Source of the DNA: Undaria pinnatifida
Lineage: Eukaryota; Sar; Phaeophyceae; Laminariales; Alariaceae
Assembly: GCA_012845835.1 (NCBI GenBank)
Contig: JABAKD010000003.1
Location: 3,344,212-3,408,211 of the forward strand
Length of the DNA stretch: 64,000 bases
Direction: 5' to 3'
How positions within the stretch are numbered: the first letter of the stretch is position 1; the number at the start of each line of letters is the position of its first letter. Positions 15,268-58,440 of the stretch are shown here, piece after piece. Below the pieces are notes generated by a model that was given only the letters and a program-made list of their open reading frames with translations, was not told the origin of the DNA and ran no database searches. Both the position numbers and the translations under genes were made by a program.

Positions 15268-15343
15268 TTAGACCGTTTCGCAGAAAGGGAATCCGGAGGT
15301 TGAGTCCTCATCGAAACAAGAGTCCTTCACCAAGATGCCGTAC
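15268..15343 (-). CDS. MC5E: MC5E-like exon 12 (stop)
   Basis: Encodes YGILVKDSCFDEDSTSG, then FPFCETV and TAA. The acceptor CCCTATTGCAG joins AA|G to make Lys. The final intron (214 bases) is the shortest in the gene and contains a (GGGTT)n array on the plus strand. Confidence 0.82.
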
Positions 15344-18300
15344 CTGCAATAGGGAAATATGGGACGGGAAAGGGCAAGGGCAAGGGAAATGAGTGGGTTG
15401 GGTTGGGTTGGGTTGGGTTGGGTTGGGTTGGGTTGGGTTGGGTTGTATTCGGTGGATGGGCACCAACACCAACACCAACACCGTGAACACGACCACCACA
15501 ACCACCAACATCGACATGATCCTGGCAGCAGCGCATCTACCGCAACACTTTACTCACTTGGAGTCGTCGGTGAGCTCCGTCTCATCCGTGACGAACTCAA
15601 GCATAGCCACATCCCCCACGTCGTCGGTGTCACCGCCCTTGATGTACCACATGTTGTCTGCGTAGAGATCGTTTACGACATCGTAGAAACGGGAGAACTG
15701 GCCTTGGATGATGTTGTCCTGCGGTATCATGCAAGATAAACCATAGGGGGAGGGAGGGGGGCGGGGGGGGGCAGGGGGGGGGCGGGTTGGGAGTGGGGGC
15801 GGGGGGGGGGGGGGAGGGTGATAGTGATCGTTCTGTCTGCTGTCCCCGGTTTGATTTCGGAGGGGAGGAAGCGTGTTCCGTCGGCGCTGATGTTGCATGT
15901 TCCGTCGGCGCTGATGTTGACATTACTGCCAAGCGGGATAAAACGAGAACTCTGGGCCCGATGACCATTTGACGTTTATGCTCCCCCCCATGGTATCATA
16001 TCATAACATATGTATGAATGGTATTCATGGCAGATGCCGCAATCTTGAACCCGGCAAAGGAACGGAAATGTGCTCAATCGGCGATGATTTTGACATATGG
16101 TGCCCGATAGCATGATAGCTGTACTCGCCGTGAAAGTGTTGTCTTCGGAGCCTGAGATCTTGAGGGCCTCGATGGGGCTTCTGATGAGGTTGTCGTGGAT
16201 GTGGTTGTTCCTGATGCGCCCATCGGAGCCTTCTACCTGTGGAGCGTTGTTGCCCTGGTCTGCTCGTGGTGGCAGATGCAATACGCCGCAGGGGCACAAT
16301 GCGGGGAGGAGCAAAGTACCCAACAAAATTCCGTCGTGAGGTCCACCAGGCAAGCATGTACGACTCATTGGGTTAGTGTTAGTACACAACAAAATGTCAT
16401 GGTGAGGTCCTCCTACAAATCATGTACGACTCATTGGCCTACTTATGAGAGATTACATCCGGCAGAGCGCAGAGGAGCAAAGCAAGCACGCAACAAGGTA
16501 CCGTCCAAAGTACGACGTCTTGTTTAATCATAGTGGATACGCTCGAGGAGAAAATTGGAAACAAAAAACATCAACAGTTTTTTCGTGAGGATCTCTTCGC
16601 ACGCGCACGAACATCCGTCGCTGTGAAAACATTGTGCCATCCCGGCTACCGCCATTGTAGCTGAACTCACACATGTGTAGTGCGAAAAGGGGTTGCTTGG
16701 CAGCGTGCACGTCGAATGTGTTCTCGTAGACCTCGTTCGAGCTCGATCCCACGCTCCACCTCATGCCGTCTGTACCAGGAAGGTATCGGTCGCCAACAGT
16801 ACAGAGAAAAGTTCGTTCAGTTGTTGTTAAACATCAAGTAGATAGGCGCGCACGAAATGCATTGATTGTGAAAGGGCAACAATCACAAGCAACACAAGCA
16901 TGTTCCTTGGGGAAGAAAACAGAGTGTCAGATTTAGTTTAGTTGCGCGCGCCGTCACCTTGTGTTCACTCGAATGCACGCCAACCACCGCAAACAACGAC
17001 TACCGACACTACCACCACCACCACCACCACCACCACAAACAACAAGAGCAACCGCAGCGTGTGGGGCTCTATTTGCTGTGCGGCGCGTGTGCGGAGGCTG
17101 TGGGACACAAGGCTACAACCCGGTTCGATCGGTCATTTTCGTTTTCGTTCATTCATCAGTTATTTTCGTTTTCGTTCATTCTTGAGGTGGTGAAGGTGGT
17201 GATAAAGGCGGTGCTAGGAGGGTTGGGGGAGGTCAGAGGCGGTGCAACCAGTGTAGCGCATGGCCGCAGTGTGTGTAAGATTACAGACCCTTGCACCAAG
17301 GCTACAATCTGGGGGGTTGCGGTCGTTTTCGCCGGGGGGAGCCATAGGGTCATAGACCACTCGAGCGCATGGCTCACATCCTCACTCCAAAAACCGGACT
17401 CGAAAAAAGTTTTCTTTGTACTGACGCCAGAGCTTGCTCAAAACTATATTTTTTCCATATGGTTGGTAGCTGTTCGCACCGACGGCTCTCTTTGAGTCGA
17501 TTCAACACAAGGCCCCACACGTGCCCCGCCCCCACCGTACCCTGGACCCTTGCTATCTCCACAATATCACAACACCATAAATTCCCGAACGGAGCACGCC
17601 GAGCTTTCGCCGACCAGACCTACGCTGCTTGTACCGGGGAGATAGGGAGGGGGTGTAACTCAATTCGCATATTGGTTGCCGAGGTCGTATGTATGGCCAT
17701 ACACCCTCGCACCCCGGCAATACCGGGGCGGATGGGAGTTCTCCCACGGTAGAAAACGCCTTTTGGGGCCAAACGTTTCTGACCGGTTGAGTTCCTCGAG
17801 TGTTGAGCTATCGGTTATTTTGTAGGATAACGTTACGAACATGTTTCGTTTTTGTGAATACTATGATAGTAGTGCAGAGAAGTGTTGATCGGGGTGCCCG
17901 AACGAATGTGACTTTTCTGGAAGGCATGTTTCAGGCGGGATACTAAGCTCCGCATGTTAGAGAGGACATAAACTCCTGCTGCGCCCCCCCGTCGCGGAAG
18001 GATTCAGGGGGAAGGGTTGCGGGCGGATGGGAGGGAGTAGGAGAGGAGGCTGCGGGAGGAGGGACTCACAGGTGTTCCTCATGACGCTGTTGCCGAAGAC
18101 CTTGGTGTCCGACGTCTCAAACAGCGCGATCCCGGCGTTGTCGTTCTTGTAGATGTAGTTGTTGCTGATGGTGGAGTGGTCACTCGAACGGTGCAGAAGC
18201 ACGCCCACGTCGTCGTTGCTGTAGATCTCGTTCCCGTCGATCATCAGGTCGTTGCACCTGTCCGAGGCAACTGTGCATCAAAGATAGAAGGGGTTCAAGC

Positions 18301-21300
18301 GAGGGGAGGGGGGGCGGGGAGGGGACGGGGGCGGAGGTAGGGTGGAGGAGGGGGGTGAGGGGAGGGGGGCGAGGGGAGGGGGGTGGCGGCATTGGCGACT
18401 GGAGGGGGGTGGGGCGGGAGGGAGCCCAGAGAGTCGAGAACGCAAACGTTACCGTCGGCGCGAATCGTATTTCCGTCAATCATGAGGATTGCTGCGTCTG
18501 TCCGATACAACTGTGAAAAAGGGAAATGGGTGGGAGGGGAGGGGGGGAGGGGGGGATGCTCATTGTCATGCGTGGCCGTAAATAGCATAGACCATCGCAT
18601 CTCTACAATGCCGGGGCGGAGGCCGTAGCGGGGGGGGGGGGGGGTAATGGAAGAGGCATTGGCGGAGTGGGAGGGAGGCTACCCGCTATCCAATGGTGCC
18701 CGGGCACGAACCCTTCCGCGTTTCTACCTGAATTTGTCTTATTTTTTTTGTCTTCTGGTGGATGGGAAAAATAAAGCTTAAGCTCACCACACTTCCACGT
18801 ATTTCCATACACGTGTCAAATTATCCGAATACCCTATTTAACAAAACCTGGAGCATTGGTACAAATAAGGCCGCTGGCCGCTCCCGTATCTCTTTGGCCT
18901 CACCAACTCCGTGGCAGCCGTTGTGGTGGATTTCGTTGTCGGTGATGGTCATGAAGTCGCTGTCGTCGTGGGGGTCGAGCCCGTAGCACTTGTTGTGGTG
19001 CACCTGGCACACGTTATCAGTTGTCGTCGTCGTCGTTAGACGCTTGCGACGGTTGGGTTTGCGAGCATCTCCTTACGAAGTGCATGCTTCGCGTTGTTTT
19101 AGACCGGGGAATTGTAACGGATGGTGGTTTGTTGCGGTAGTCGTACACAGGAGACGCGTGCTACGATAGGAGGTGTCACTTTTCGTCTGAAGAAATGTTT
19201 TCCGAATGACGGGGCTCCTTAACCCAAAATAATCGGAAAACAAAAAAATAATAGGCCATTTTGTTTTGCGTGATTCTCGTTGTACAACTGTCCTAGGCCA
19301 TGAGATTTGTCATCCGGTAGCTAGAAGTTTTTATTTTTCTCCAAAAATCCTTTTTTTTGGGAGGGGCATGTCTTATGCTCCCGAAATTGAGGAAACATCA
19401 GAAAAAAGCGGTACACCTCTATCTTAGCACGCTATGGTACCATAAAGGGGGTTATGGTTTTATGCCCCTTTTTAAGGGGCTTTTTTCGCAGTGGCTCGGA
19501 GTCACTCGCGCGAGTGACCAACCCTGAGTGACAAATTTTTGCTCGTTGTTTTTTTACCAGGTGTCACCCCTTCCCCTTCCCCCCCCCCCGGTTCTTGCTT
19601 TCAATTTTTATCGCGCATAGGGTTCAGCAATCCCACTGCTCGTCGACTTTTCATCGAGGGTTGCAGACTGACGCTCTCGCAATTTCCGCAAGTCAATGTG
19701 TGCACGAGAAAATGTCCCTACGAATTTATACGAGGAGCATGCATTCGGGGGGGGTTCGAACTCACGGAGCTGACCTCTACCAGGGTCGAAGATAACCAGA
19801 TAGGCCACCGGGGGGACAGTTATGCTACTCTGCGCCAACAAAGTCCCCTAACCAAAGAGTTTTTTGTCGGCGAGGAGTAGAGTCGCCCTTGCTGTCAAAA
19901 TAGGGGTATATCATGACATAACACCCCCCTTGCCGTACGTATCCTTGGTCGACAACGGTCATTTTTGTAACTGGCACTAATGCCGCACGTTATCAGATGG
20001 AAACCCATGTCGTGATTGATAGCTGCGGGTTCACCTCTCGCTACCGCCGGTTTGCCCCGGCTGGCGTCTAAACGAATAGGGAATGTGTGTTATCCTATGG
20101 ATACAATATAAGTTTCTGGCGCTTTCCTCGGAATTTTTCAATACGTACATCATCAGAAAGTGGCGGAAGGAGGCCTTGGATGCCACACGAGGCACGCCAT
20201 CACATGGGTTTCCGCGCAATAAGAGGCATAAAACTAACCCAGAAAACAACTCTCACCTCGTTACTATCGATGATGCCGCCCTGGTGCCCGAACGAGTAGT
20301 GGCCGAAGTAGTTGTACGCTAACACGGTACCGTTGATGTCCCCCCAGACGTTCACTTCGTCCATGATGTCCAAGTTGCTGAGGTCGTCGCACAGACCCCT
20401 AACCTTGTACGACACGCCGTACGATTCAGCACCGTTGTAGCCAAGTTCTAATTCGCCAGAGTTGTGGCAGACAAGGGGATGGTTACAGGCGGGGGGGAGG
20501 GGCGGGGTTGGGCCAGTTAAAAGGAGGGTTCGTTGAGACACACGGTACCACTCGGCACCGTTGAAACCAAGGTATTTGACGAGAGCGAGGGTTTCCGCTC
20601 AGGGAAATGGAATTTAGGATGGGGGGGCGAACTCATTTGTTGCTTGCCTTGGTGGTTGAACCATTGACCACGCATCCCTCTCGAGACGCAGTACCGTTCC
20701 TATCCCCAACGTCTTATCTCTCTCCTCTGTGGCCCGCTGTTGCCACCATTTTTCTCCTAGGATAGTGATTGTATTTTTCGCTAGTATCTATTATTCCAAA
20801 CTTCTCCATGCCACATCCCTCTCCTGTTTCCCATCTTTGTACAGTTCGCATTATTCCACCAAGTGTGTGGGGGGGGGGGTTAGGCCAGCTGAGAGGAGAG
20901 TTTGCTCTGAGTTCAGTTGAGGTGCCAAATGCTCCAAAATCGAGGCCATCTAACTCTGCACCATTGTAGCCAAGCTCTTTGATTTTGCCATTCGATGCGG
21001 CGAGGGTCCCAGCCAAGGGGAAGGGTGCACGGGGAGGGTTGGAGGGGGCGGGGTAGGTCAGGCGAGAGGAGGGTGGGTTGATCGAACTTCTCACTGGGCA
21101 GGTTCGAGCTTACGTGTACATCCTCGCTGAAAAACGTCTCTTAGCTGTTAAGACCCCTGATCAGACAAAAAAACGGTGTGAGACACATGCTACAGTTTTC
21201 GTGCACCGTTCTTTTTTCTGAGACTACCTAAACAGAAAATAGTCCAATTTCTACCCTAAACTTCTACCCTAAACGTTCTACCGCATGAGCAGCCCCAAGG

Positions 21301-24300
21301 CATAGGTATACAACGAAATAATTTTGAAGAAAATAAAAAAATGGCCTATTATTTATTTTTTTCCCGACGATTTTGGGTTAAGGAGCCACGTCTCGTTGAG
21401 AAAAAAACGTTTCCGCCGAAAAGTGGTAGACCTCGATCGTAGCGCGCTTCGTGAGGCGAGGCACCGGTAAGCGACAACTCACGAGTGATTTGGCTGTCGA
21501 TGATGTCCATCCTGGCCTCGCCCATCGCGTCCTTGGCCGCGCCACTGCACGTCTGGGGGTTGTCTCCGATCACCTCGCTGATGGCACTGATGTAACTGTA
21601 GTGATGAAAGGGTAACACACGCACGCGCGACAACCGCGGATTTTGGTTTGTTGTGTTTTGTTTTGTTTGTCGATGCCATGACGGCGCACGGGGTAATACT
21701 CGTAGCTGATCTTCGCTGAAAGACGTTTAGGAGTCCCACGAAACAAACAAACGTGCGGGATGAAAAGTCGACCGCGATAAAAACTTTGTGCTTCAGATTG
21801 TTTTGCAGCGCGCGGACATACGACAGCGAACGGGGTACGGTGTTGTTTGCGCGACATGTGCACATGCGCGCATACACGTTTACACCGGTAGCCGTTCTAA
21901 ACTGAAGATAGCGTAGAGTGCGCACCTTCTCCCAATTAGGTATACGGTGTACTGACACATCTGTAGACGTATGCTTAGTTGTTATCCCGGTGCATGTGCC
22001 TCTGTGGGCGTATGAACGGGTGGGAGGAGGGGGTGGTACGAACAGCTACCGGCGACCGTCGGTGGCATTCTTGTGTGCCCCCCCCAGCACTGCCGTCGGT
22101 CAAATTCGGAGGAGTTGGACCGCACGTCTCCTGGACATTTGCAGTAGGTACTCGGCTACAGTACGGTACTGAACATTAAACAATGTATGCTGTGGTGGCA
22201 GCTACCTTCGGCCGTCGGTGACATCCTTGTCCGCCCCCCCCCCACCGTCGTTTGCGGAACGGTCCAGAGATCGGACCTTTACGCCCTTCATCATCAGCTG
22301 CCCGCCGTGAGCTCGCAAGTTGATGAACTTGTCGGCATCGCTCGTCTGCCAAAAACAAAATAAAGCGAATGACCATTGTCAGCACAGGATAGAGTAAACG
22401 AAAAGAGATAACAAAACCAACGCGTCGTTGACCAGCGGCTGGCTACAAATAAATCATCAAGGAGAAGCTATGACGTAATATATTTTTTCAAGACTGTGTT
22501 TTTGACCCTGGCTGGTGTGTTTTTTTCGAGTTACACAGGTCGATTGAATATTATATTTTGCCGACTTTTCACCTTCTTGTGTTCCCCTCAATCAAGCAAG
22601 CAACATGGTTTGGGTGAAGTATTTTGATAGAGCCCTGTGCTCGAGCGAAGACGGAACCTCGACGGTATCATCAGCTGTGCACCTTCTTCGCCGCGTGTCG
22701 AAAAAACGTACAAAAACCAAACACTACGTGGCGTCCTAACGGTATCGTCTCTCCCTTAACACCAACAACAATGGTTGTCTTGCGAACAGTATCATCAGGT
22801 ATTATAATGCGCTTTTTATTTTTGCACGACACACACTTGACAATGAATGTCATGCGAAACAGTATCAGGTATGTGCTCTTACTTCTTTTTTTTTTTTCAC
22901 CACAGTGCACACTCCCGCCATGAATTCATCGATCTCTACGTATTGCACAGTAGTATCAGGTATGTGCTCTTACTTCTTTTTTTTTTTTCACCACAGTGCA
23001 CACTCCCGCCATGAATTCATCGATTTCTACGTATTGCACAGTAAGTAGTATTCAATCTATACTATAAAAAATAAATATATACTTCGTACAATGCTAAAAG
23101 TGAAGAGCTACTATTACTTTTGATAGTTGTGGCCAAGATTACGTACGGTAGGAGGGTCCCTATTGAGGCATTTTTTATTCTTGAGGTATTTGAAAAAGTC
23201 ACTGCTGGAAACCCGGCAGAGAGTAAGGGAGAATACACCCCACGTTCCCGTTCAAAATTTACTGCCTTCTTCTTGGCAGCGTATATTGTTCACGAGCGTG
23301 CTAAATAATAAGGGCTGCAACAGTTGTGCGCTGGTGAACATGCAAAGAAGCCAAGTACGGGTGGTACGCGTGACAGCTTGACGGGTGTGATAATACCGTG
23401 GTATTGTGAAATTAAAGGTGGGGGACACAGAGTGCCCCCTGCAGGTCTGCCAATTGAGCAGGTCTTCGGAGAGTACTCACTTTCGTTCCTTCGTAGAGAT
23501 GTAGCTTTATTCGTTTCCACCAGAGCCCGGGATAGCTTCTGAGATCGGAGGCGCGTGCCTCCGATCTAAATCCTAACTTCCCCGAATATAAACCGCCAAC
23601 CTTATCATACGAAACCCATCCAAATGATCTCAAATTCGGATACTCTCAGGCCTTTCGAGGCCGTATCTTAACAGTATGATAAAGCAGGTATCTTTTGGCT
23701 AGTGTTGTCATTCTAATACTAATATCATTATTGTGCTTGCTTGCCACCCGAAACTGTGTTGTCAGCATGAGCTTCATCGTTGACCACTCTGACATTCCCG
23801 AAACAAGACCCCCCCCCGCGCCGAACGCCATCTATCTATCTAGCAGCGCCCGCCATCGTTACTGCGCGGAAACAAAGGGAAACCTATGGATAAAAGTCTA
23901 GACTAGCCCCTTCACTCTCAATATTGCCGAAACAAGGAGACCACCGAAACAAAGGAAAACCCATGCACAACGTCTAAGCTGTATAAACGTGATGGAGAAG
24001 CTTCGTCAACATGAAAATGTCTGGACCCAAAAGAGGTACTACTGCTGTACCCTATCGTGATGCTGTACCCTATCGTGATAATCGTCACAGTATATATCTG
24101 AAAATGTCTTGACAAAAAAGAGGTACTACTACTGCTGTACCCTATCGTGGCACACTCGTCATAATATCTGAAAATGCCTTGATCCGAAAGAGGTACTACA
24201 CACTGTTGTACCCTATCGTGGCACTCTTCACAGCACGGGTGATTGTCATGCTTCTCACCAGCAAGAGCCTCCTAGCGTCGCCGCCGTAGCTGGGTCCGAC

Positions 24301-26765: not shown

Positions 26766-28500
26766 GCTGCTGCTTGATCTCGAGAGATGACAGACGGATG
26801 CGGTGTACCTGGTACTCGAAAGAGGGAGGGAAGTTGTGTACTCTACCAGTACCCGGTGCCAGTGGTAGCTGTGTATGCGCGTTGTATGCGCGTCCCTGGT
26901 GCTGGCTCACGATGTAATCTCTTATTTATACAGTGTAGGTTTGATCGCGGTGGTCAGTAAGCGATGCTGCTTGCTCAGGTGTTCCTTGGGTCAGATGGGG
27001 AGAGGGAGAGGTAGTGTGCGGTGTGGGCAGTGTGGGGCTTATACGAGTCGTATATCTCGTGTGTCAGACATTTACTTCCTGTTTTCTTCTGTCTATCCGG
27101 CGCATTTGTTGCGATTGAATTGTTCAATTTTTTTCATTTTTGTTTTTCAACAGTCCGTTTGTTATTTTTTCCGGCGACGGGGTTGTTGATATACTTGCTA
27201 GACCATCGACTAAAATATACGGAAAAATAATGACCGTTTCCCTTTTAATATTACTGATGAACGGTATGTACATTTATGCCCATATTGGTCCTGATTCTGA
27301 TCCTTTCACGTATCATATGACACGAGCATCATCATCACCAATCATCATGGTATCACTCACAGTAACTTAACAGTTGCAGTGACATGTTATAAAGAGTACT
27401 CGTCGAGTGGTCCCCGGTACTGGTGTAGACTATATCTTCTAGCCGCCGTAGGCACCGGCACTACAGAAGCAACCGTCACACTACTCCTCGTACTGCGCCG
27501 CAGCTGGTTGTTCTCGTCTGTGCCAAGCGATTTTACAGGCGATATATAGAGCGGGCATACCGGCAATATAATAGTACTGACTGAAGAGGGACCACTATTA
27601 CGGAGGGCGATAGTATATAGGACCAAATATCGTTAGTAAAAATATATTAATATATAGGTTTTTGTGACCACCGTAGGTCCTATTTACTAGGGACCCCGTA
27701 ATACTACGCCCTGTTGTTGCAGCACTCTGCAGATAGATATGCACAGCCAGAAGACGCGTGATCGCCATGCCGGACGCTTCGTGCAGAATATGGTAAACAC
27801 GAGTTCGTACCAGGTATACTACTTACGCATAGATAGCTCTTCGTTCGGTGGAACGAGGCTGAATCTCTTGACTGTGTGAGCTATTATCGACGCGCATTAA
27901 TACCCCGCTGTTACACCTCGTGTAACACGCAAAAAAAGAAGACAACACATACAACAAGCCCTCTGACGAATATACCGGTCAATTCAGATTGTCTCGATCC
28001 CAAGCGAACGTATACATCGGCCATGTGGGTGGGATTTTTCGCATATGCATTGGGTTGAACCATCAATCAGTTTTTTTCTCAAACTAGTTTTCGGGATGGC
28101 TGTATAGTCTATATAGAGCTCTCCTCATGTGACCAATAGACCCAAAAAAACAAGGGCATAATACCTCTCCATGTAGTCTATAGATAGACTATATACCTCG
28201 CAAGTATTAAAAATAAAATACCCTCCAGCTGTGAGATCGAAGATTTTGTCGAAACTCATCATTGCAAGCTGTGTGTGATACTCCGATATATAGTATGTGT
28301 GTGCCAATAATGGGCAGAGTATGCAACCGGCGAGCGATGCGTGTTGTTTTTTTAAACGTTTTGAAGTGTTGTTCTCGCAATCGTAGAAAATCGGTTTTAT
28401 TATTGTCAACAAAAAAAGTGTGTATTATGTTGTCTATATGGACGAAAAAAAAAAAAAAATAGACAAGCCTAAACCGGGGATGGTAGTCGCACATCCCGTG

Positions 28501-29405: not shown

Positions 29406-29537
29406 CGTTACCCTATCGAATTAGCAAGCACGTGTTTGGATTGCATGCCAGGGAGTGACGCGCGCGCTACGATAGAGGCATACCTTTTTTTGGCTATTTT
29501 GTTTTTCTGAATGACGGACGCTCCTTAACCCAATGTT

Positions 29538-29800
29538 AAGATACGGCCTCGAAAGGCCTGTAATTATCCGAATTTGAGATCATTTGGATGGATTTCGTTT
29601 GATAAGGTTAGCGTTTTATATTTGGGAAATTTAGGAAGTAGACCGGAGGCACGCGCCTCCGATCTCAGAAGCTATCCGGGGCTCTGGTGGAATCGAATAA
29701 AGCAACGTCTCTACAAAGGAAAAGAAAGTGAGTACTCTCCGAGGACCTGCTCAATTGGCAGACCTGCAGGGGGCACTCTGTGTCCCCACCTATAACTTTA
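29538..29800 (+). repeat. Repeat family E copy
   Basis: Starts AAGATACGGCCTCGAAAGGC and ends GGGGGCACTCTGTGTCCCC. The pair at 23.4 kb is in the opposite orientation. It contains a palindrome around GGAGGCACGCGCCTCC. Confidence 0.75.
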
Positions 29801-33031: not shown

Positions 33032-33091
33032 AATCGTTACCTGAGGGTCTAAAATACCCTCTGCCGCATTGTACGACTCGGGCACTTCGAC

Positions 33092-38830: not shown

Positions 38831-38987
38831 CGGCCTCCTTCAACCCATCCGGTCAATCAAATTTACCCATCAGTACAAAACAACCACCGCCTTCTTTTGG
38901 GTTTCAATCTTCCCCCCTCGCCCCCCCCATCCCCGAGTTGGATCTGTCCCAGCTGCTGAGAAGGTATCAGGTGTCAGCACCGAAGGC

Positions 38988-45100: not shown

Positions 45101-48100
45101 GGACTACTAGCTGGTATTTTCCCGAAGGTGCCGACTATCCGGCTTATTGGGTTTCCACACTAGTAGGAAGGATTTTTTTCACTGTGGGATGCCGTTTTTC
45201 CTTGCGGGTGCCCTCCCCGGCAGAGGGAATGTAGGTTTGGCTCGCTTCGCTCGCCTGGCTTTAGTCGGTGCAAGCCGGCTGGCCATCATCTGGCTTTGCC
45301 TGCCGACTTGCTGACTAAAGTCAGTTCGCCGGCTGTCGGCATCTACCGATTATTTAGTAGTCGCGAAAGCCTACCGACTCGCGACTCTACCAAACAGGTA
45401 ACGTCTGTCATCCAACGGCTAAAAAGGAATACGGTAAAAATTCTGCATTAAAACAAAATTGTAATGGAAGCAAGCTAGCATAATGTATGCACATATCGCT
45501 TTTTCATGTGGCATAATTCACAAAAAAACGAGCATAAAGGAGAAGATTATTAGAGGTCGGGAACCGACCAAAGAATAATAATCTGGTTTTTCTTGTGAGA
45601 GAGAACTTCGGAGGCGTTTTGGTTCATAACTCGGTGATTGAAGAACTGGCATTGATTGCATCAGCATGGCAGTTTTGGTTGATCGCTTCAGTGGCTATAC
45701 CACGTGGATGCAGTATTGGACGGTGCTGGCAGACTGGTAGAACACGCGATCAGACAGTCGTGCTGTTGCTAGTAGCTGGCTGGCAGCTGCTGGGCCAAGA
45801 ATGTTCAAACACTGCTTTTTCATGTGGCATAATTAAAAAAAAAATGAGCATAAAAGGAGCAGAACAATTGGCGGAAAACAACATTACTTATGTAGCGGCA
45901 AGAGAGGTCGTCACTAAAAAAACGTAAGCTCACCATGAACTGCTTGGCCTGCGTGGTGTCCGTCGGGATGCAATTTAGGATCTAAAGGATCTAAATGATC
46001 TATGTGATCTACATGACCTATGATCTATACTGTACGGTATATCTAGTCTACATGATCTACGTGATCTATATGATCTATACGATCTATACGATCTATACGA
46101 TCTATATTATCTATATGATCTAGATTATCCATATGATCTATATGATCTATATGATCTATATGATCTACATGATCTATATCGTGAGCCGTCCGACGTGGGA
46201 GACAGTTGGCGTGTGATTACCTGATAGCTCTTCTTAGCCTGACCCGGTTCACTCCCGCATGTGCTCAAGCATCTAGAGGGTCTAGATTGCGATATGTTCG
46301 ACGGCGTAGTTCGTGATGCGATCTGTTGAATGCGTGAAGAAATTTCGTTTTCGCGGTGGGCACTGCTCACGACCAAGCCGACGATAGAGGGTTGCCTTTC
46401 GCGGCCATTCGTTTGGCGGTGGGCTCCGGGTCGCTCGCGCGAGTGAGCCAACCTCCCTGTTTCTTCTCGCGGTGTTAAGGTTTCGTTCTTTCAAAAATTT
46501 GCGATATAAACCTCGCGATGAACTGGTTAGCTACGCCGCGCCAAGAAAACCGCCTGAAGGTTGTTGTCGGTGAGGTGCAGAGTCCCTCGTGCGAGTATGA
46601 TAGCATGACAGTATGATAGTATGATAGTATGACAGTATGATAGTGTGATACCTCAAACCCGCTAGTGAAAGGCCCGCTACCGTGGCGTTTGGTCTCACGT
46701 GGTAGCTCTTCTTCGCCTGCGCTCTGTCCTCCGGCACGTACTTGAAGCTGGCCTTGTTGTGCATGATGAGCTTGTTCTGAACAAAGTAAAAGCTGTCCGA
46801 TGTCGTCTCGTATGGGTTCGCGATCATTTCCTCGACTTTTAGATGTCCATTTTCGACAGATAGAGAGAGGAAAACGCAAGAAAACGGGAGGGAGGGGAAG
46901 GGAAGGGCAGGGGAGGGAAAAGGAGGGGAGGGAAGGGAAGGGAGGGAAGGGAGGAAGGGAAGGGAAGGGAAGGGAAGGGAAGGGAAGGGAAGGGAGGGAA
47001 GGGAAGGGAGGGAAGGGAAGGGAAGGGAAGGGGAAGGGAAGGGAAGGGAAGGGAAGGGAAGGGAAGGGAAGGGAAGGGAAGGAAGGGAAGGGAAGGGAAG
47101 GGAAGGGAAGGGAAGGGAAGGGAAGGAAGGGAGGGAAGGGAAGGAGGGAAGGGAAGGGAAGGGAAGGGAAGGGAAGGGGGAAGGGAAGGAGGGAAGGGAA
47201 GGGAAGGAAGGGAAGGGAAGGGAAGGGAAGGGAAGGGAAGGGAAGGGAAGGGAAGGGAAGGGAAGGGAAGGGAAGGGAAGGGAAGGGAGGGAAGGGAAGG
47301 GAAGGGAAGGGAAGGGAAGGGAAGGGAAGGGAAGGGAAGGAGGAAGGGAAGGGAAGGGAAGGGAAGGGAAGGGAAGGGAAGGGAAGGGAAGGGAAGGGAA
47401 GGGAAGGGAAGGGAAGGGAAGGGAAGGGAAGGGAAGGGAAGGGAAGGGAAGGGAAGGGAAGGGAAGGGAAGGGAAGGGAAGGGAAGGGAAGGAAGGAAGG
47501 GAAGGGAAGGGAAGGGAAGGAAGGGAAGGAAGGGAAGGGAAGGGAAGGGAAGGGAAGGAAGGAAGGGAAGGAAGGGAAGGGAAGGAAGGGAAGGGAAGGG
47601 AAGGGAAGGGAAGGGAAGGGAAGGGAAGGGAAGGGAAGGGAAGGGAAGGGAAGGGAAGGGAAGGGAAGGGAAGGGAAGGGAAGGGAAGGGAAGGGAAGGG
47701 AAGGGAAGGGAAGGGAAGGGAAGGGGAAGGGAAGGGAAGGGAAGGGAAGGGAAGGGAAGGGAAGGGAAGGGAAGGGAAGGGAAGGGAAGGGAAGGGAAGG
47801 GAAGGGAAGGGAAGGGAACGGAACGGAAAACAACGCCTCCGTTTAGCGAAACGTTAACAACCCAACCCCGGCGGCGCGCACCACATTTCATCATCACGAA
47901 CGTGTTATTTTTTGCGCATGGTAGCAACGCCTACAGATAGCGCCGAGCACACCTTTGACCCAAGAAGAAATTTAGCTCTGGCCAATACCATGGTTTATTT
48001 CCCAGGGGGTGGCACTTTCTCTGTTTTAGTTTTGTTTTGGATCACCCTTTCCACTATCTCCGAACTTTTCCTTTCTTTTTCTCCCTCCCTAGACGTAACT

Positions 48101-51100
48101 CAGATCATCCGGTGGGGCCACTAAGCAGGCTCTTCTTCCCCGCGCCCACGATCGTACGTGCTTTCAGTGCTATCGCGAAAAGGATTTCAGCTGTGTCTTC
48201 CCTCGTCGACTCGCATCGAATTATACCGCATACTTTTAACACTTCGCCGAAACGTCGTCGACTACGGTCGTGTTCAGTCTTGCTCCGCGATAGTGCCGTG
48301 CTTCATATTAGTGCAGGCCCTCCAGTATAGTGCGGTGAAGAGTCATCTCAAGTAGATGTTGCGCATTTTGGGGACCCAGTATAGTGCGGTCGAGCTCCCC
48401 AAGTGAGGAACTGCCGGGTAGTCTCGGTACTTTTGGTCGGATTGCGCGATTGAGCTCCGTGGAAGTCATGATTCGGGTGATGATGGGTGGTGATGGGTGA
48501 TGTGTGATGGATGACGATATTGAGCTCCTCGTGTTGGGAGCTCTCGGAAAGTTCTTGGAATCCTGTGTACCCCTACCGCGTGGGATGGCGCTGAACCTTG
48601 CTTGTCGCGACCGAGCAGGCTACGGTAGGGGGGGTCGCTTGTGGGGCCTTTTTGTTTTTTTGCAGTCGCTGGTGGTCACTTGCGCGAGTGGCCCACCTCC
48701 CCGCTCCTTGGCGATCTCGAGATTTCGCACTGCGTTCTAGGTTTTCGGCATGACTCCGCTGTGGCATGGTAAGAAGCTGCTGCCAAGAAAAACGCCCGAG
48801 AGTGCTCTCCTCCGTAAAATACAGAGTCAGCCGTGGGAGTATGATATGATATGAAATCTCAAACCCGGTAGTTCAAATGGGGGTATATCGTTATATGATC
48901 ATAACATCATCGTAACATCATCATAACATCATCATAACATCATCATAACATCACCATAACATCATCGTAACATCATCCTAACATCATCGTAACATCATCA
49001 TAACATCATCGTAACATCATCATAACATCATCATAATATCATCGTAACATCATCATAACATCATCGTAACATCATCATAACATCATCGTAACATCATCAT
49101 AACATCACCATAATCATAACGTCATCATAACATCATCATAACATCATCATAACATCATCATAACGTCATCATAGCATCATCATAACATCATCGTAACATC
49201 ATCATAACGTCATCATAACATCATCGTAACATCACCACAACATCATCGCAACATCATTATAACATAATCGTAACATCATCCCAACATCATCGTAACATCA
49301 TCATACCATCATCATAACATCATCGTAGCATCATCACAACATCATCGTCACATCATCATAACGTCATCATAGCATCATCATCACATCATCATAACATCAT
49401 CATAACGTCATAACATCATCATAACATCTCCCCTAAGGTGCCCTTGGTCATCATGGGATAGTTCAGCGTCCCGTCATAGTGCCGGTGGTAATATCTGGCA
49501 AGGCACCACACTAAGGAAGGCGTCTCGCCATAGTGCCGGTGTTAATATCTGGCAAGGCACCGCACTAAGGAAGGCGTCCCGTTATAGTGCCGGTGTGAAC
49601 ATCTGGCAAGGCACCGCACTAAGGAACTAAGGAAGGCGTCCCGTTATAGTGCCGGTGTGAACATCTGGCAAGGCACCGCACTAAGGAAGGACCGCGACTG
49701 TGTATTAATTCGTCCAAAACGTTGTAGTGCCTCCTCATGTCTTCGTCAAGCGGCGGGACTCGATGTATACCGACGAGCGATTGTCACCGCACTAAAGTGG
49801 GACCTCGCACTAAACGAACCCACCCGCTTTACCATGGAGGGCGATCGAAACTCGCCGAAAGGGTGGTACTCACTTAGGTCGTCGTCGAGCCGGGGAGGTG
49901 GGTTGGTATTCTGAATTGCGATTTTGATCGCACTTGCCCACACCATATGGGTTAGGCACTAACGCGGGACTATGACTCTGCTTCGGCAAAAAGGCGGTGC
50001 TCACTTGGATCGCCGTCGAGCAGGGGGAGCTGGTATGCTGGATTTCGATTTTCACCGCATTAAACTGGGAGACCCGCACTAAAGACTGAAAAGGACCACC
50101 GCAGAACCATGACTACTGTTGTATCTCGACAAAAGTAAAAGTTCTACTCACTTAGGTCGTCGTCGAGCGCGGGGACTTGGTACACGGCGTCCCAAGTGTT
50201 GGTGCTCCCGGGGATGCAAAACCCAAAGTTAAAGTCGTAGCTCTTCACCAACTATCGGTACGGCACGTTACGACGCAGCACGGCACGGCATGGAACATTT
50301 CACACGGCGAGCGCACGAAACGAGTGTTGGGCGTTCATGTCGTTCTCATGTCGTCTCGGGCTCAGGTGTGGGAAGCCTGATACATTCCTTGCACAATTAG
50401 TATTAAAACAAAGTAGTGGTAATCACTGAATAAGGCGGTGGTGCGCACAATCGACCCCCATCCCCTCCCTCTCAGGAGCAACCGCCTTTTCCGCTAGTAG
50501 GAAGGATAGCGCAATTGTGGTATTGGATTTGCTAGCTACAGGCTCAAGCGTGTCTGCACAGACGTGGAGGCCCCAGCTTCCCTCAATTGGGCGGTAGACC
50601 ACGCTATTGAGGGGCCGGCTGTGAGCAAGATGGTCAATACCGTTCTGCGGGTTTTCGTGGTGGCTGAGGCGTTTTTTTACTGTCTTATACAGGGACACCA
50701 CGATGTTAATACCGCCTTATATAGGGACAACAAGATAGTAATACCGCCTTATCCGGGGACCGTTATTGTGTACGCTTACATCCTCTCCTGAAAACAAAAA
50801 CAGAAAAGAGTCGCACCCGTGCAGCGTTAGAACCTGGTCCACGGTCACAAGGCGGACTCCGGCAACTCTCGAGTGGAAGATTCACCCGCGCTGGGTGGCC
50901 CGATTTAAGAGCGCCCCGTGACAAGCCGAAGCAAGCGCTCTTAACCCTACGTAGCTTTTTTATCTGTAGTGGGAAATATATAGCTTTTAGCATAGGCGGG
51001 ACATGCCGATGTAACCGCTCGTAAGTCCTGAATGCTCCTATCCTTGGCGCTAATAAATCGGGGTACTCATTTCGTAGAGAAAAATCAATACATCTTGTGC

Positions 51101-54100
51101 CAGACACCAGGCCCTCACGCGAGGAGCGAAGCAGGGGGGGACGCGGGAGGGGAGAGTGATCAGATACCCGGAATTGTTTCACTTGTCTCCCGTGAAACGA
51201 TTTTCTCTCTATACTCTTATCATGTTTCGACAAGGGTATTTGTGTTGTATTTTTCTCTCTACTTGTAATCACGCCGCAAAAGAGCGTTACCCTATTGCGT
51301 TTGTCTCTCTGCACTATAAACCAATCGCCAAATGGGAGCGTGCTGCTTACCTTGTTCCTGAAATAGTGCCTCTCCACCATTCTGAAGCCCGCGATTTCCA
51401 CCTCGCCGACAGAAAAGACCAGAGACGTCTGTCCCCAAGTATCAACGAATAAAGAAAGCGCGACGCGTGCGTAGCGTAGGCGACGAAGATGTACTGTTAT
51501 TTTTGGACAAGACGACGCCAAATTTATAGATCTATTTCGACTAATACGGGCGAATTTTGTGAATAGACAGATTTCCTTTCGTTTCTTCCCGTGATTTTCG
51601 TTCTTCGGGGGCACTGTGAGTTATCAACGTTGAAACTCATATAATACCGCACATTTTCGGCGGCAAACAAGCACAAGCATTATAACTGGGGGGGGACCCG
51701 CGACAAACACAAGAACCTATAGACTATACGAAGTATATATATATATATATATTTTTTTTCACACACATCTACTTCCCAGCTTCTGGACAAAAGCCGTGGT
51801 CACAGGTGTCGTCCCTTCTCCCCCCCGGTTCTTGTTCTCGATTTTGTTATCGCGCATAGGGGTTCAGCAATCCCACCGCTTGTCGATTTTTCATCGAGTG
51901 TTGCTGACTCACGCTCTCGCGCTTTCTGCGAGTCAGTTTGTGCACAAGAAGAAGTCCCACACGAATTTATACGAGTAAGCACTCGGGGGGACTCGAACTC
52001 ACGAAACTGATCTATTCCAGGCTTGAGAATAACCTGATACGCCACCGGGACGACCACCTCATATATATTCGACCACGGCTGCGGGAGGGAGGGGGGGCGT
52101 ACTCATTTGCTGCTTGCCTTAGTCATTTGACGCTTGACCACGCATTCCTTTCGAGACGGAGCACCGTTCTCTACTCCTAGTAGAGACACCTCCAACATTT
52201 GGGCGCTCAATACGATTCTTCTATATAGTACGAGTACATAGAAATTGTTTGCCTATCCTATGCCCTTCTTGTTTCGCCGTTTGTGGCCACATGGCAGGGA
52301 GGTTGCCCTACTTTGTGCTTCCGGATTTGAGCCCCTCGCACGAGTGACGCTGTACGTCGACGACAAAACTACTGTGTGCGGTCTGCTTGGCGCAGCGTAG
52401 CTGGCCGCTCCATTGCTGATTTGTATCGACAAAAACGCCTCGACGTCGTCTCACACCGACCACGGTGGAACACTTCCAACATCTCCTTGCAACGACCACG
52501 ACGACGAAACACCTCAACTTCTCCTCAGAGCGACCACAACGACGAAACGCTTCAGCCTCTCCGTAGAACGACCACGACGCACGCAACGCGCCAAACATCA
52601 ACATCTACCCGAAACAACCACACACGACGAAACGCTTCAAATTCTCTTCACAAACACCACGAGGAAATGGCAACCACGACGAAACACGTCAACAACTCTT
52701 CACAACGACCACGACGAAAAACCTTAACATATCTTCACAACGACCACGACAAAAAACCTCAACATTTCCTTACAACGGGCATGACGATTCAACTTTTTTT
52801 TTTTCTTTTAATCCTCCAGCGAATGGCGAAAAATAAGCTTAAGCTCACCACACTTCCGCGTGTGTTTTCATATTTGTCGCGCATCAATTTAACTCAAATG
52901 TATCCGCAATCCAGCTGGTTTGCTTGCGTACCCGCCGTTCCCCGTGGTCACGACAGCTCGAGCTGTCCCTACCGGCGGTACCGGTCCAGCAGATTCGAAC
53001 CCCCCGCAGCGACCACGGCGAAAAAACGTCACCATCTTCCCACAACGACTACGACGAAAAGAAACAACTTTTTTCTCCTCACAGCGACCACGACGAAGCA
53101 CTTCACCATCAAGATCTACACACAGCAATCGCCAGAAGAGAGAGAAAAAAAAAACACTTCAGCTTCAAAACATCTCCTCACAACGACCACGACCGTTAAT
53201 TCTAACTCTTAAGTGATATGGAAAAGTTGTGGTCACAAAATACGACACACACATTAATTAGGGGTTCGGAATACCTCGTACAACAATCGGCTGGGAGGGT
53301 GGGCAAATGAATACACGATAATATTCTTGAAACCGACGAACGTCAGACCCCTAGGCCCGCCCAACCCACGAAAAAACATCTAAACCCGACCCATAGGGCC
53401 CTTTATGCCCACAGCCCTGAAGAAAAAAAATGTTGGGTTGGTCGGGATAACTCCAACTCAACTGGCCAACAAAAGTCCACCAGAATTTGAGCAACACCCA
53501 ATCAGGTCTTGATGATTAACGTTTCGTTTTTCTTTCCTCTGACCCAACATAATTTTGGTAATATGCGTAGGCTGTTTGCGATGTACCAACTTTGGCCGGG
53601 TAGGAATTTGGGCAGAAAAACATGTATATAATACTACTGACAGTATTGAAAATGCCGAACGTCACAAATCCGAGGGAAAACAAGTCCACGAAAATCAGTA
53701 AAAAACTTAGCTTAGAAATACGTTTACGTACCTACCATTCGTTTATTTTTTCCCTTTGAAGCATATTTTTTTCTCGTGGATTGATTGGCCTTGGGTTATA
53801 TACGACATTCGTTCGGCTTCCATGCTTTTGTTTTTCTTTGTTCCACCCCAAACGAATCTGGAAATCGCAAACATCCTAGTCGCAAACACCCTGTTCACGC
53901 ATGTACTCACCTGAATGGACGGTAACCGCAGGACATCCTCTGAAAACTCGTACTTGATTAGGCGGTACGCGTTCTCGTCCAGGTTTCCCAGGTCGAGATC
54001 GAGGTCGATTGGCGGCGGGTAGTCTCTCCCCACCTTTTCGTTGCAGAATAAATACAGATGGCACAAGTCAGACAGATCATCGCACAGATCAGACGAATCA

Positions 54101-57100: not shown

Positions 57101-57527
57101 TAGTCAGGAGCCTCGGAAAAAATCTAGGGCTGTCTTCAGCGTAAAGCGCTGATACGGTAGATAACGGCACGGTCACTCGCGATCAAAGTATTTGCACGAC
57201 AAGCTTCCGCACTAAGCTGAAACCACGGCAGTCGAGGTACAGTAATCAGAAATCACGGTATTCGCACGGCACGCTTCCGCGGTAAGCGAAAACCGCGGGA
57301 ATTCACGGTTTCGCGGCATTTACCACCAGCCGTGGTTTAACCGCGGTAATTTTACCGCGGTAGAATTGCCGAGGACGGCCCTGAAATGAACACAGGGTCA
57401 CCTTTACCCTGCCGTAGAATGGAATTTTCGCTCACCATAAAAATAACGTTCTTGGTGGCGTAGTCGCTGATGGTGAACTCGATGAACTCGAGCTGGTGTT
57501 GGTTCGCGGACAGCGCGCACAAAAAGT
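38988..57527 (-). CDS. UNC119: UNC119 / PDE6-delta-like lipid-binding chaperone, 7 exons found, N-terminus missing
   Basis: Exons 57527-57436, 54033-53911, 51428-51351, 50251-50152, 46835-46699, 42739-42688 and 39184-38988 join in frame: 258 residues plus TAG. Family knowledge: UNC119 binds myristoylated proteins in a beta-sandwich pocket (GMP-PDE delta domain), delivers them to cilia and releases them to ARL3-GTP. Seen in order: [62 protein letters not shown]; the diagnostic [13 protein letters not shown] and NKLIMHNKA. Animal UNC119 ends soon after this; here an extra tail follows of about 100 residues, first Lys/Ala-rich, then acidic and Gly-rich, ending [10 protein letters not shown]. All junctions are GT-AG and phase-consistent. 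The first found exon opens in phase 1, so an upstream exon with the start codon must exist; I could not find it up to 64 kb. Introns are 1.1-4.0 kb and full of repeats and exon copies. Confidence 0.88.
39490..39806. repeat. (GGGTC)n pentanucleotide array
   Basis: About 60 near-perfect units, inverse to the 37.2 kb array. It lies in the last UNC119 intron, about 300 bases upstream (sense) of exon g. Confidence 0.97.
40040..40255 (-). mobile_element. MITE family A copy, reversed and partial
   Basis: Ends with GGGAGCTCAGAAAGTTCTTA GAATCTGCTGCACC and CGTGGGACGAC, the family end in reverse orientation. The other end is degraded. Confidence 0.5.
40612..40855 (+). mobile_element. MITE family F copy
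   Basis: Left end TTCTACGGTAGCCTCCCCAA, right end TTTGGGGAGGGGGCTATCGTAGAA. It lies in the UNC119 intron 39185-42687 and is the best preserved of the three copies. Confidence 0.7.
42688..42739 (-). CDS. UNC119: UNC119 exon f (52-base mini-exon)
   Basis: Encodes [17 protein letters not shown] plus one base. The acceptor TCCCCGCAG and the donor TGGTGAGC are both strong, and the phases (0 in, 1 out) fit exon e and exon g exactly. On the sense strand a (CCCCT)n array begins about 60 bases upstream of the acceptor. Confidence 0.78.
42775..43018. repeat. (GGGGA)n array
   Basis: A near-perfect GGGGA run; on the UNC119 sense strand it reads (TCCCC)n and leads into the acceptor of exon f. Confidence 0.97.
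43568..43870 (+). repeat. Family 1 copy
   Basis: Same order of words as the copy at 961-1290, including the downstream half (CGTTTCTGAGGGGGACAA, GAAAGGAAATAAATGCATCA). It lies in the 42740-46698 intron of the UNC119-like gene. Confidence 0.7.
44126..44446 (-). mobile_element. MITE family F copy, reversed
   Basis: Begins with TACTACGATAGCCCCCCTCC followed by ACCGGCGACTTTG, and ends with CACCGGCGATTTCGTTGAAG and GGGCTATCGTAGAA. The centre differs from the other copies. Confidence 0.55.
45925..46270 (-). pseudogene. Two donor-side copies of UNC119 exon e
   Basis: The 3' end of exon e (AQAKKSYH then GTGAGA) recurs as GQAKKSYQ then GTAATC at about 46.22 kb, and as TQAKQFM then GTGAGC at about 45.93 kb. 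The conserved NPYET core is absent from both. A GATCTATAY minisatellite separates them. The 45.93 copy has an AG upstream and could be a weak alternative exon, in phase 0. Confidence 0.65.
45970..46185. repeat. GATCTATAY minisatellite
   Basis: A 9-base unit GATCTATAT/GATCTATAC with ACGTGATCTA variants, many copies. Confidence 0.9.
46385..46690 (+). mobile_element. MITE family D copy
   Basis: Contains GTCGCTCGCGCGAGTGAGCC, GATGAACTGGTTAGCTACGC, CAGAGTCCCTCGTGCGAGTA and TGATAG repeats. Its right end touches the donor of UNC119 exon e. Confidence 0.6.
46699..46835 (-). CDS. UNC119: UNC119 exon e
   Basis: Encodes [18 protein letters not shown], then [15 protein letters not shown] and [12 protein letters not shown]. 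NPYETxSDSFYFV is the most diagnostic UNC119 motif. The acceptor is CATCTAAAAG, preceded on the sense strand by about 0.9 kb of (TTCCC)n. The donor is CACGTGAGA (phase 0). Decayed donor-side copies lie at about 46.22 and 45.93 kb. Confidence 0.92.
46880..47822. repeat. (GGGAA)n array, about 0.9 kb
   Basis: Mostly perfect GGGAA with scattered GGAAGG and GGGAGG interruptions. On the UNC119 sense strand it is (TTCCC)n and ends about 40 bases before the exon e acceptor. Confidence 0.97.
48400..48595 (-). mobile_element. MITE family A copy, reversed
   Basis: Carries AGCTCCCCAAGTGAGGAACT at one side and GTTGGGAGCTCTCGGAAAG, then CCCCTACCGCGTGGGATGG at the other. A GATGGGTGATG-type short repeat fills the centre. 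Confidence 0.55.
48615..48890 (+). mobile_element. MITE family D copy
   Basis: Starts GCTACGGTAGGGGGGGTCGC, contains TCACTTGCGCGAGTGGCCCA and AGAGTCAGCCGTGGGAGTAT, and ends near CCGGTAGTTCAAATGGGGGT. It is in an intron of the UNC119-like gene. Confidence 0.6.
48893..49430. repeat. 11-base minisatellite (ATCATCATAAC)n
   Basis: About 45-50 units with GTAAC and GTCATC variants. It lies in a UNC119 intron. Confidence 0.92.
49460..49690. repeat. About 57-base tandem repeat, four copies
   Basis: The unit GGCGTCCCGTTATAGTGCCG GTGTGAACATCTGGCAAGGC ACCGCACTAAGGAA, with one ACTAAGGA expansion. Confidence 0.9.
49858..50151 (-). pseudogene. Two donor-side copies of UNC119 exon d
   Basis: Near 49.87-49.93 and 49.99-50.06 kb the sense strand repeats the exon's last coding stretch (CTCGACGACGACCTAAGTGAG in the real exon; one copy keeps it, the other reads CTCGACGGCGATCCAAGTGAG). 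A diverged version of the ATTTCGATTTT region precedes it. Both lack the GFCIPGST codons and an acceptor. Unit spacing is about 130-145 bases. Confidence 0.75.
50152..50251 (-). CDS. UNC119: UNC119 exon d
   Basis: Encodes [18 protein letters not shown], then [15 protein letters not shown]. FDFxFGFCIPxS is the conserved beta strand of the lipid pocket. The acceptor is ACCGATAG and the donor is CTAAGTGAGT, phase 1. Two decayed donor-side copies lie downstream at 49.87 and 50.0 kb. Confidence 0.9.
51351..51428 (-). CDS. UNC119: UNC119 exon c
   Basis: Encodes [19 protein letters not shown], then RHYFRNK. FRMxERHYFR is a signature of UNC119 proteins. The acceptor is GGGGACAG and the donor is AAGGTAAGC, phase 0 at both ends. 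Confidence 0.88.
51790..52052 (-). mobile_element. tRNA-derived SINE copy
   Basis: Head on the minus strand: GTGGCGTATCAGGTTATTCT (box A-like), then GTGAGTTCGAGTCCCCC (box B-like). Its body matches the 19.6 kb copy (GCGCATAGGGGTTCAGCAAT in plus orientation). The tail ends near ACGACACCTGTGACCACGGC. Confidence 0.75.
52440..53195. repeat. CGACCACGACGA minisatellite, about 38-45-base unit
   Basis: AACGACCACGACGACGAAAC followed by ACTTCAACWTCTCCTCACAG-type words repeats through 52.44-52.79 kb and again from about 53.01 kb. Confidence 0.75.
53911..54033 (-). CDS. UNC119: UNC119 exon b
   Basis: Encodes [18 protein letters not shown], then [20 protein letters not shown]. It aligns to the family's 'LDPNAGRFVRYQF.. 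FLRL' region. The acceptor is AACGAAAAG and the donor is CAGGTGAGT, phase 0 at both ends. The acceptor lacks a strong pyrimidine tract and sits next to a minisatellite; the frame is open through it, so the exact 5' edge is less certain than the 3' edge. Confidence 0.8.
54058..54421. repeat. ATCAGACAGATC minisatellite with a 110-base duplication
   Basis: A 15-base ATCAGACAGATCATCGCAC-type unit, then two copies of a 110-base block (CAGACGGATCATTTTGTCCC through GAAATGTTGGGCTGGGGCAC). It starts about 25 bases upstream (sense) of the exon b acceptor. Confidence 0.85.
55075..55435 (+). mobile_element. MITE family A-like copy
   Basis: Left end CGTCCTACGATGGGGGGCAG, right end CACCCCCTGTGGGATGATTC. 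It contains AATATCTCACCCGAGGCGGC and TTCGAAGGCAATTCGTTCGC, the internal family words. More diverged than the 60.6 kb copy. Confidence 0.5.
55825..56030 (+). repeat. Family G repeat with poly-G head
   Basis: A G run at 55.81-55.84 kb, then TGTACTCATTTCATGCATAG, CCCTCGCACCCCTATATTGT, GACGGAGCACGTCGAGTTTC and GAGTCGCATGAAGGGTGAGC. Confidence 0.7.
56475..56720 (-). mobile_element. tRNA-derived SINE copy, diverged
   Basis: Plus-strand words CCGTGATCACAGGCGTCTTC, TATCGCGCAAAGGGTTCAG and TTCATCGAGTTTTGCTAACT match the SINE body. The head is overrun by the 210-base tandem duplication at 56601-57040. Body fragments also occur at about 48.09-48.25 and 61.15-61.30 kb. Confidence 0.6.
56601..57040. repeat. 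210-base tandem duplication, nearly identical copies
   Basis: ACTTACGCTCTAGCGTTTCA through GGCCATGAAAATGCTCA occurs twice (from 56601 and from 56811). The second has about one more ACCATTGGTACT unit. Confidence 0.93.
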
Positions 57528-58440
57528 CTGCACAGGCCGAGGGCATAAGAACAGCGAAGGGGAGGATGCACGGTAACACGGGATGGATTAGCGGGGATAT
57601 GGATCATGCTCTTAGTTTCCGCGCTCGCCACTGCCACAGACTCCCCACCCCCGTGTTTATTTGATTATGTTGACCGTTTCAATGGAACTGGTGTGTTGTT
57701 GGTGGTTTCGACAAAATATTAAGGGGTTTGAGCAGATGTTTGTTGGCGGCCAGCGCTCACAAAAAAGTCCGCACTATCAAAACGAGCGGCCGCGGAAGGG
57801 AGGGAAGAAGGGCACACGGCATCGGACATCGATCGGGAGCTGTTGGTGATTGAGCCATATGTTTCCGTTCACAAGATGTTTGATGGTGGTGATGCCTTTG
57901 ATGGGCTTGACGATTCTGCGTTCATGGTTTTGATGGCACTATGGAGTCGGATCTGGTGGTTGTTGACGAGCAGCGCGCACAACAAACGTCAGCACCACCA
58001 AAAGGCAAACAACAGCGAACGGGAGAGGACACACGACAGCCCGGGATAGGTCAGCGGATACGAAGCATATACTCTTAGTTTCCACGTACCTATCGTCACA
58101 GGCATCCGTATTTGATTGTGTTGAGGGTTTTCGTGAGAATTTGCTGATGGTTTACACGGATTTTACGAAACTTTGAGCTGGCGTCTTTCCGCGGACAGCG
58201 CACACAAATTGTAACGAAGGACAACTGAGGGAAGGAAGGAAGGAAGGAAGGAAGGAAGGAAGGAAGGACACACGCCATTGGGCATCGATCGGAAGCAGAT
58301 ATTGGTCGGCACATACTTGATTTCCCCCACAGTAGTCATCGGCGTTTGATCGTGCTGATCGGTTTTTGATTTTTCATGTTAACTGTTTCGATGGCACTAT
58401 GGAATAGGATCCGGGTTAGCTCACGGAGGTGGAAACGAAG
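57430..58440 (-). repeat. Tandem array of decayed copies of UNC119 exon a and its flank
   Basis: Units of roughly 200-250 bases. The plus-strand marker CAGCGCGCACAAAAAGTC of the real exon (about 57.51 kb) recurs in altered form near 57.75, 57.98 and 58.19 kb. Shared flanking words are ATCGATCGG, GAACGGGAGAGGA/GAAGGGGAGGA and ACTCTTAGTTTCC. The copies keep the acceptor side of the exon and lack an open frame and donor. A (GGAA)n run interrupts the unit near 58.23 kb. Confidence 0.75.
57436..57527 (-). CDS. UNC119: UNC119 exon a (first found)
   Basis: Encodes [19 protein letters not shown], then [12 protein letters not shown]. It matches the family's start of domain (FLCxxxxN...F..F.IRD). The acceptor is GCCTGTGCAG and the donor is ATGGTGAGC (phase 0). 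It needs one base from an upstream exon, predicted to be G. It is the lowest-coordinate unit of a tandem array at 57430-58440. Confidence 0.85.

Follow-up and report, generated by a model that had tools for sequence, protein, structure and literature searches.

Partial exon copies in a brown algal genome support a general short-range duplication process and do not support a preference for exon edges

Two genes on the minus strand of the 64,000-nt stretch of DNA analyzed here (C37:3344212-3408211, hereafter the window), an MC5E-like gene (alginate C5-epimerase) and UNC119, lie among what look like decayed pieces of their own exons. This raises the question of how such copies arise and whether exon edges are a preferred target of the process that makes them. 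An earlier note had reported copies for at least eight of 19 exons, namely MC5E exons 3, 4, 6 and 8 and UNC119 exons a, d, e and g, and had proposed a general short-range duplication process that catches exon edges repeatedly.

With AG/GT borders and consistent phase, 15 exons were modelled instead of the 19 counted before, ten for MC5E and five for UNC119. A single open frame runs through MC5E exons 1 to 9, and another through the five UNC119 exons; the last UNC119 exon was modelled without a donor and its 3' end is not fixed. The spliced UNC119 protein belongs to the GMP_PDE_delta family (Pfam 187 bits, cut-off 25), and the nine PDB sequences that match it best are all UNC119 A or B. The spliced MC5E protein matches Beta_helix with 84 bits, a right-handed beta helix resembling C5-epimerases, and all eight of its PDB matches are C5-epimerases (best E 5e-17). 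By sequence similarity the MC5E-like gene can be assigned to the mannuronan C5-epimerase type.

Copies were searched by local alignment of the exon alone to the sequence within 3 kb on either side; dinucleotide shuffles and distant blocks of the window served as controls. Matches were left uncounted if p exceeded 0.01 without an aligned flank, if distant blocks equalled them or if they lay on another beta-helix coding exon. Local same-strand partial copies were found for seven of the 15 modelled exons, MC5E exons 3, 4, 6 and 8 and the UNC119 exons at 57.5, 50.2 and 46.8 kb, which confirms the observation of partial exon copies (Table 1). The four MC5E exons reported before were thus recovered, as were three of the UNC119 exons. 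The fourth was not: the UNC119 exons had been given letters without coordinates, one of them was assumed to be the 51.4-kb exon, and for this exon no significant copy was found within ±3 kb by exon-only alignment or in the edge test described below.

The exon-only p values in MC5E are 1e-8 for exon 3 (94 of 126 exon bases identical, only about 10 intron bases included), 9e-5 for exon 4 (exon bases 95-140 of 140), 0.013 for the exon 6 copy found in this way and 0.009 for exon 8, in which about 200 intron bases are included; the far copy of exon 6 was spotted by eye and scores 233 with its flank. In UNC119 they are 6e-5, 1e-3 and 1e-3 for the 57.5-kb exon, whose three copies have all lost AG, 0.002, 0.03 and 0.13 for the 50.2-kb exon (GT kept in two of three copies, steps of about 130-150 bases) and 4.5e-4 for the 46.8-kb exon. 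Where such p values are weaker among the counted copies, support comes from the intron flank, which aligns too. With the flank included, the counted copies score 131-459, compared with a maximum of 126 for shuffled 100-base segments (n=1070); as the flanked queries are longer than these segments, 126 is only a rough yardstick for the lowest scores (131, 134, 147). All window copies lie beside their parent on the same strand, at offsets of -685 to +478, and their exon parts are 67-93% identical (58-93% over all rows aligned). This range excludes a match of MC5E exon 9 at -1194 (p 1e-4), which is doubtful as a copy.

Table 1. Parent exons and their partial copies in the window (positions counted from the first base of the window).
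Feature	Position	Strand	Remarks
MC5E-like exon 3, parent	24259..24410	-	AG/GT borders, frame
Exon 3 upstream copy, acceptor side, exon bases 1-128 of 152	24514..24656	-	offset -239
MC5E-like exon 4, parent	22206..22345	-	exon model
Exon 4 downstream copy, donor edge and intron start, GT kept	21932..22096	-	offset +155
MC5E-like exon 6, parent	20257..20447	-	exon model
Exon 6 near upstream copy, acceptor edge, AG lost	20537..20626	-	offset -126
Exon 6 far upstream copy, acceptor edge, AG kept	20943..21117	-	offset -537
MC5E-like exon 8, parent	18070..18270	-	exon model
Exon 8 upstream copy, acceptor edge and intron end, AG kept	18437..18714	-	offset -240
MC5E-like exon 9	16673..16769	-	exon model
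Exon 9 uncertain copy, no edge, no flank homology	17869..17955	-	58/82 identical, offset -1194
UNC119 exon at 57.5 kb, first modelled, parent	57436..57527	-	exon model
Array, three upstream copies of 57.5-kb exon acceptor side	57728..58398	-	steps about 230 bases
UNC119 exon at 51.4 kb, no copy found	51351..51428	-	exon-only search and edge test
UNC119 exon at 50.2 kb, parent	50152..50251	-	exon model
Array, three downstream copies of 50.2-kb donor edge and intron start	49735..50035	-	offsets +147, +279, +415
UNC119 last modelled exon (46.8 kb), parent, 3' end not fixed	46691..46835	-	exon model
One downstream copy of 46.8-kb exon 3' part	46114..46270	-	offset +478

The geometry of the copies was then compared over 28 aligned rows, which include copies at other loci of the genome. 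These rows are matches already judged real, so that the count is descriptive and not a blind test, and for the MC5E paralogs L039, L024 and L036 the exon length was set to a nominal 150 bases. The script for the 28 rows missed the start of exon 2 of the Ras locus L069, and its two copies were added from a separate alignment. With these, 29 edge copies are present, and MC5E exon 9 is the sole exception among the 28 rows. The 18 upstream copies begin at exon base 1 and extend into the intron end (acceptor edge), while the 11 downstream copies stop at the last exon base and extend into the intron start (donor edge). This side rule is the mark that a tandem duplication leaves when it spans one edge of an exon: such duplication must give it, whereas dispersed insertion, retrocopies and decayed gene duplicates need not. 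The claim that most copies retain one edge with the adjacent intron holds in 27 of the 28 rows. That they lose the rest is mostly true as well, except for three rows (the 57.5-kb exon at -240, L070 exon 1 and L036) that align across the whole exon length at 60-71% identity.

In 20 of the 27 rows having both parts, the exon part is more alike than the intron part; the seven rows with the higher identity in the intron include the four of L039, L024 and L036. The homology block is as long as the offset in the arrays of the 57.5-kb and 50.2-kb exons, in L069 exon 2 and in L070 exon 1. It is shorter than the offset for exon 3 (138 bases, offset 239), the far copy of exon 6, L050 and L051, and we put the missing remainder of the tandem unit in such old copies down to decay. 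Selection against duplications of whole exons, which we do not claim, was considered from expected counts. If the unit is set equal to the offset, about five of 19 duplications would be expected to span a whole exon and none is seen (p 0.0015, with lengths and blocks partly estimated); if it is set equal to the visible block, the expectation is 1.5 of 19 (p 0.13), and the three low-identity alignments do span the exon.

How common local duplication is in the window was determined with masked 100-base segments (n=1070), for which a local match scoring at least 120 was sought within 1.5 kb; for the control the sequence was shuffled within 500-base blocks. Direct matches were obtained for 202 segments, inverted matches for 63 and direct matches after shuffling for two, showing that the matches exceed those of shuffled sequence. 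In 131 of the 202 segments with direct matches the offset is below 300 bases. Direct matches occur in 10 of 53 exon, 65 of 332 genic non-exon and 127 of 685 intergenic segments, and inverted ones in 0 of 53, 4 of 332 and 59 of 685, respectively. For genic segments together this amounts to 75 direct against 4 inverted matches in 385.

Other regions of the genome also show more direct than inverted matches overall. For the MC5E-type loci and other fetched pieces, direct matches were obtained in 146 of 2013 segments and inverted ones in 21, and for exon centres in 4 of 137 and none; here and in the count of near-perfect duplications given below, ten loci that fell within the window or overlapped other loci were excluded. 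For the AAA-ATPase loci the values are 95 of 1072 direct and 12 inverted, with exon centres at 10 of 119 and none; overlaps among these 22 loci were left in (L046/L055, L054/L063, L061/L062), so that some segments are counted twice. In L022 and L024 inverted matches are as common as direct ones, and the region of a UNC119 paralog (L040, C52:606000-615999), unlike the window, has no local direct repeat in 142 segments. The duplication load across the genome is uneven. A general short-range duplication process, as proposed in the earlier note, is thus upheld by the excess of direct matches, their short offsets and their presence in other genes.

Exon copies were also found outside the two genes. 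The Ras loci comprise nine regions, corresponding to 17 of the 66 matches listed, which were picked before their sequence was read. Clear edge copies are present for eight of 39 AAA and Ras exon matches (L046, L050, L051, L058, both exons of L069 and both of L070). A score of at least 105 was reached in 13 of the 39, five of which were dropped (L042, L043, L045, L053, L060), these being long coding-coding alignments of 60-70% identity whose best inverted scores were 83-106% of the direct ones. L069 exon 2, the clearest case, gives a younger example: its donor half and the following intron are repeated head to tail in two copies as a full tandem block, in which 88 of 97 bases are identical in the exon part and 222 of 293 outside it; the exon part of the second copy has 80 of 97. 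GT is kept in both copies, and the first contains frame-breaking gaps.

MC5E-type genes are clustered at C37 3.28-4.01 Mb, C19 2.97-6.02 Mb and C26 6.11-6.65 Mb, and most of the 89 genomic matches of MC5E exon 6 lie on these three contigs. Upstream copies of exon 6 are present in four of the seven genes examined in the C37 cluster (the window gene, L039, L024 and L036); the other three, L023, L027 and L041, yielded none. In a tree, the two window copies group together (93/92) and then with the window exon (87/88), both with moderate support, and the copies of L024 and L036 group together (99/99); the placement of L039 is without resolution. The tree indicates that the exon 6 edge was probably duplicated separately in different paralog lineages. 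The near copies of the window (20537-20573) and of L039 (about 1014-1090) both read YR..QRT, encoded by different codons, and the exons read YG..YK. A common ancestry of these two copies is hinted at by the shared residues, but the tree, which joins the window copies to the window exon with moderate support and leaves L039 unplaced, does not bear it out. L015, an MC5E-type locus on C32, has two matches to the latter half of the exon 6 homolog (at about 770 and 1501 in gene orientation), which may represent a further exon copy.

If exon edges were a duplication hot spot, for instance through R-loops or splice-related breaks, they should be hit above background. The repeated hits at the exon 6 acceptor, with at least two and probably three events in the C37 cluster, speak for such a preference. 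The edge counts of the window do not: 7 of 28 edges have a local match at score 110, compared with 60 of 300 random intron positions of the same genes, and 5 of 28 compared with 56 of 300 at score 120, where the 28 edges leave out the acceptor of exon 1 and the 'donor' of the last UNC119 exon. Two of the seven edge matches, at the exon 3 donor and at the acceptor of the 54.0-kb UNC119 exon, are moreover mostly intron sequence. Exon segments in the window resemble genic non-exon and intergenic segments in their match frequency, and neither the exon centres outside the window nor those of the AAA loci rise above the overall values. No preference for exon edges was found in these two window tests or with the exon centres elsewhere, and we regard such a preference as very improbable. 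Copies are thus no commoner at exon edges than elsewhere, and the claim that the process catches edges repeatedly is true, separate events at one MC5E exon included, at about the background rate only. Since the parent is conserved, old copies are easier to see at exons, and the true duplication rate there may be lower than elsewhere. Overall, the proposal is partly supported, in its general process; a preference for exon edges is not supported.

Some of the copies could instead be maintained by selection, as alternative exons with a function or as regulated alternative splice sites. Among the upstream copies, 9 of 18 keep AG at the homologous place, and among the downstream copies 7 of 10 keep GT; the 46.8-kb exon is left out for its lack of a modelled donor, and the copies of L024 and L036 are counted apart though resembling one event. 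Such retention, the residues shared by the exon 6 copies of the window and L039, and the copy of L070 exon 1, which keeps AG and aligns over the whole exon at low identity, would fit a function. These values are, however, near what decay alone is expected to leave (about half, as a rough estimate), so that the tally gives no sign of selection on copied splice sites either way; frame-breaking gaps occur in the copies, those of L024 and L036 contain stops, and the tree places the window copies of exon 6 with the window exon and leaves L039 without resolution. We therefore hold a selected function for some of the copies to be very improbable. Still less credence is due to the reading that the copies are remnants of tandem gene duplication, exons of decayed neighbouring MC5E or UNC119 paralogs left in introns, which we take to be extremely improbable. 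The MC5E paralog cluster on the same contig is in its favour. The copies, however, alternate with the exons, each lying next to its own parent, with one edge kept and their own flanking intron carried along, and the AAA and Ras genes show the same pattern; lying between its parent and the neighbouring exon, each copy points to a separate event and not to one gene duplication.

We consider it highly probable that frequent short-range tandem duplication produced the copies. Units ranging from about 60 bases up to a few hundred would be duplicated, and a unit straddling one exon edge would leave the exon whole and place spare copies of the edge with adjacent intron in the neighbouring intron. The edge continuous with the rest of the exon would stay in use, and the spare edges would presumably be ignored by the spliceosome. 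With selection holding the parent exon while copy and intron drift, old events would remain recognisable mainly over the exon part and would resemble decayed half-exons. Weighed against a simple tandem reading were the long offsets of L069 (1675 bases) and L046 (681 bases) and the intergenic inverted matches (59, compared with 127 direct), together with the short homology blocks of several old copies, the seven rows in which the intron part is the more alike, the equal frequency of inverted and direct matches in L022 and L024, and the uneven duplication load.

The duplications themselves may arise during break repair, by staggered breaks or nicks, fill-in and end joining, and arrays may grow later through slippage or unequal exchange; for the repair step we infer this from other organisms. 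Among 30 near-perfect duplications, the excess is at most a tenth of the unit in 12, and 10 of these have -2 to +1 bases beyond two units, which argues against long microhomology, although few cases are available and the size of the excess is restricted by the cut applied. In this small sample the slight excess would fit staggered-break fill-in and end joining better than long-homology slippage. A near-perfect two-copy tandem duplication of 91 bases in an MC5E intron (window 22861-23043) is likely a recent example of the process.

To our knowledge, only a few single cases of intron gain or exon-edge change by tandem duplication are known. In the case of the potato RdRp intron, a tandem duplication crosses from an intron into the following exon and duplicates the acceptor signals (PMC4974935). 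There a single event gave a new spliced intron, while the copies described here represent many, mostly old events in several genes, seen in the DNA. The AGGT-segment model (Rogers 1989; Hellsten 2011; cited in PMC4974935) likewise derives splice sites from local tandem duplication; its unit is exonic, whereas the units here straddle exon edges and their copies lie in introns. In Drosophila, tandem duplication is reported to have given novel intron positions and so altered gene structure (PMC2891723), whereas exon structure appears unchanged here. Small tandem duplications made by staggered-break fill-in and end joining are described for mouse and human cells after Cas9 cuts (PMC8355091). They are short and head to tail, mostly without the microhomology of theta-mediated joining, as would suit our case; they stem from mammalian Cas9 cuts and not from algae, and the units here reach several hundred bases. 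In the brown algae themselves, a report on ROCO genes describes within-gene shuffling of LRR exons (PMC11378527), in which tandem exons are spliced and used, unlike the partial, decaying, single-edge copies found here. The open-access literature searched yielded no account of single-edge exon duplication on a genome-wide scale in brown algae.

As many copies keep AG or GT, spare edges could possibly serve as cryptic splice sites or seed new exons. Roughly one exon in five or more may carry a spare edge, judging from the eight of 39 AAA and Ras exon matches and the seven of 15 window exons. That these make up a large reservoir of half-exons whose splice sites are still live, and that some of them are already used or have founded introns and exons, is a speculative and rather unlikely extension; if true, edge duplication would be one of the main ways in which gene structure changes in this brown algal lineage. 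Copies at many stages of decay are available in the genome, the freshest fairly young (91% in the exon part, L069) and the oldest nearly erased, and could show how often duplicated splice edges are ignored, used or turned into new introns. Its intronic half-exons can also mislead gene prediction.

Other repeats are present in the window. Long pentamer arrays of CCCGA and CGGGT at 37202-37589 and 39490-39806 are mutual reverse complements about 2 kb apart. A dispersed repeat of 270 bases with about 90% identity lies at 23405-23673 in an MC5E intron, inverted at 29534-29802, and near the UNC119 paralog (L040 4848-5118). A further dispersed family, mostly 80-92% identical, is represented at 976-1285, 1894-2219, 28205-28287 and 43572-43865.
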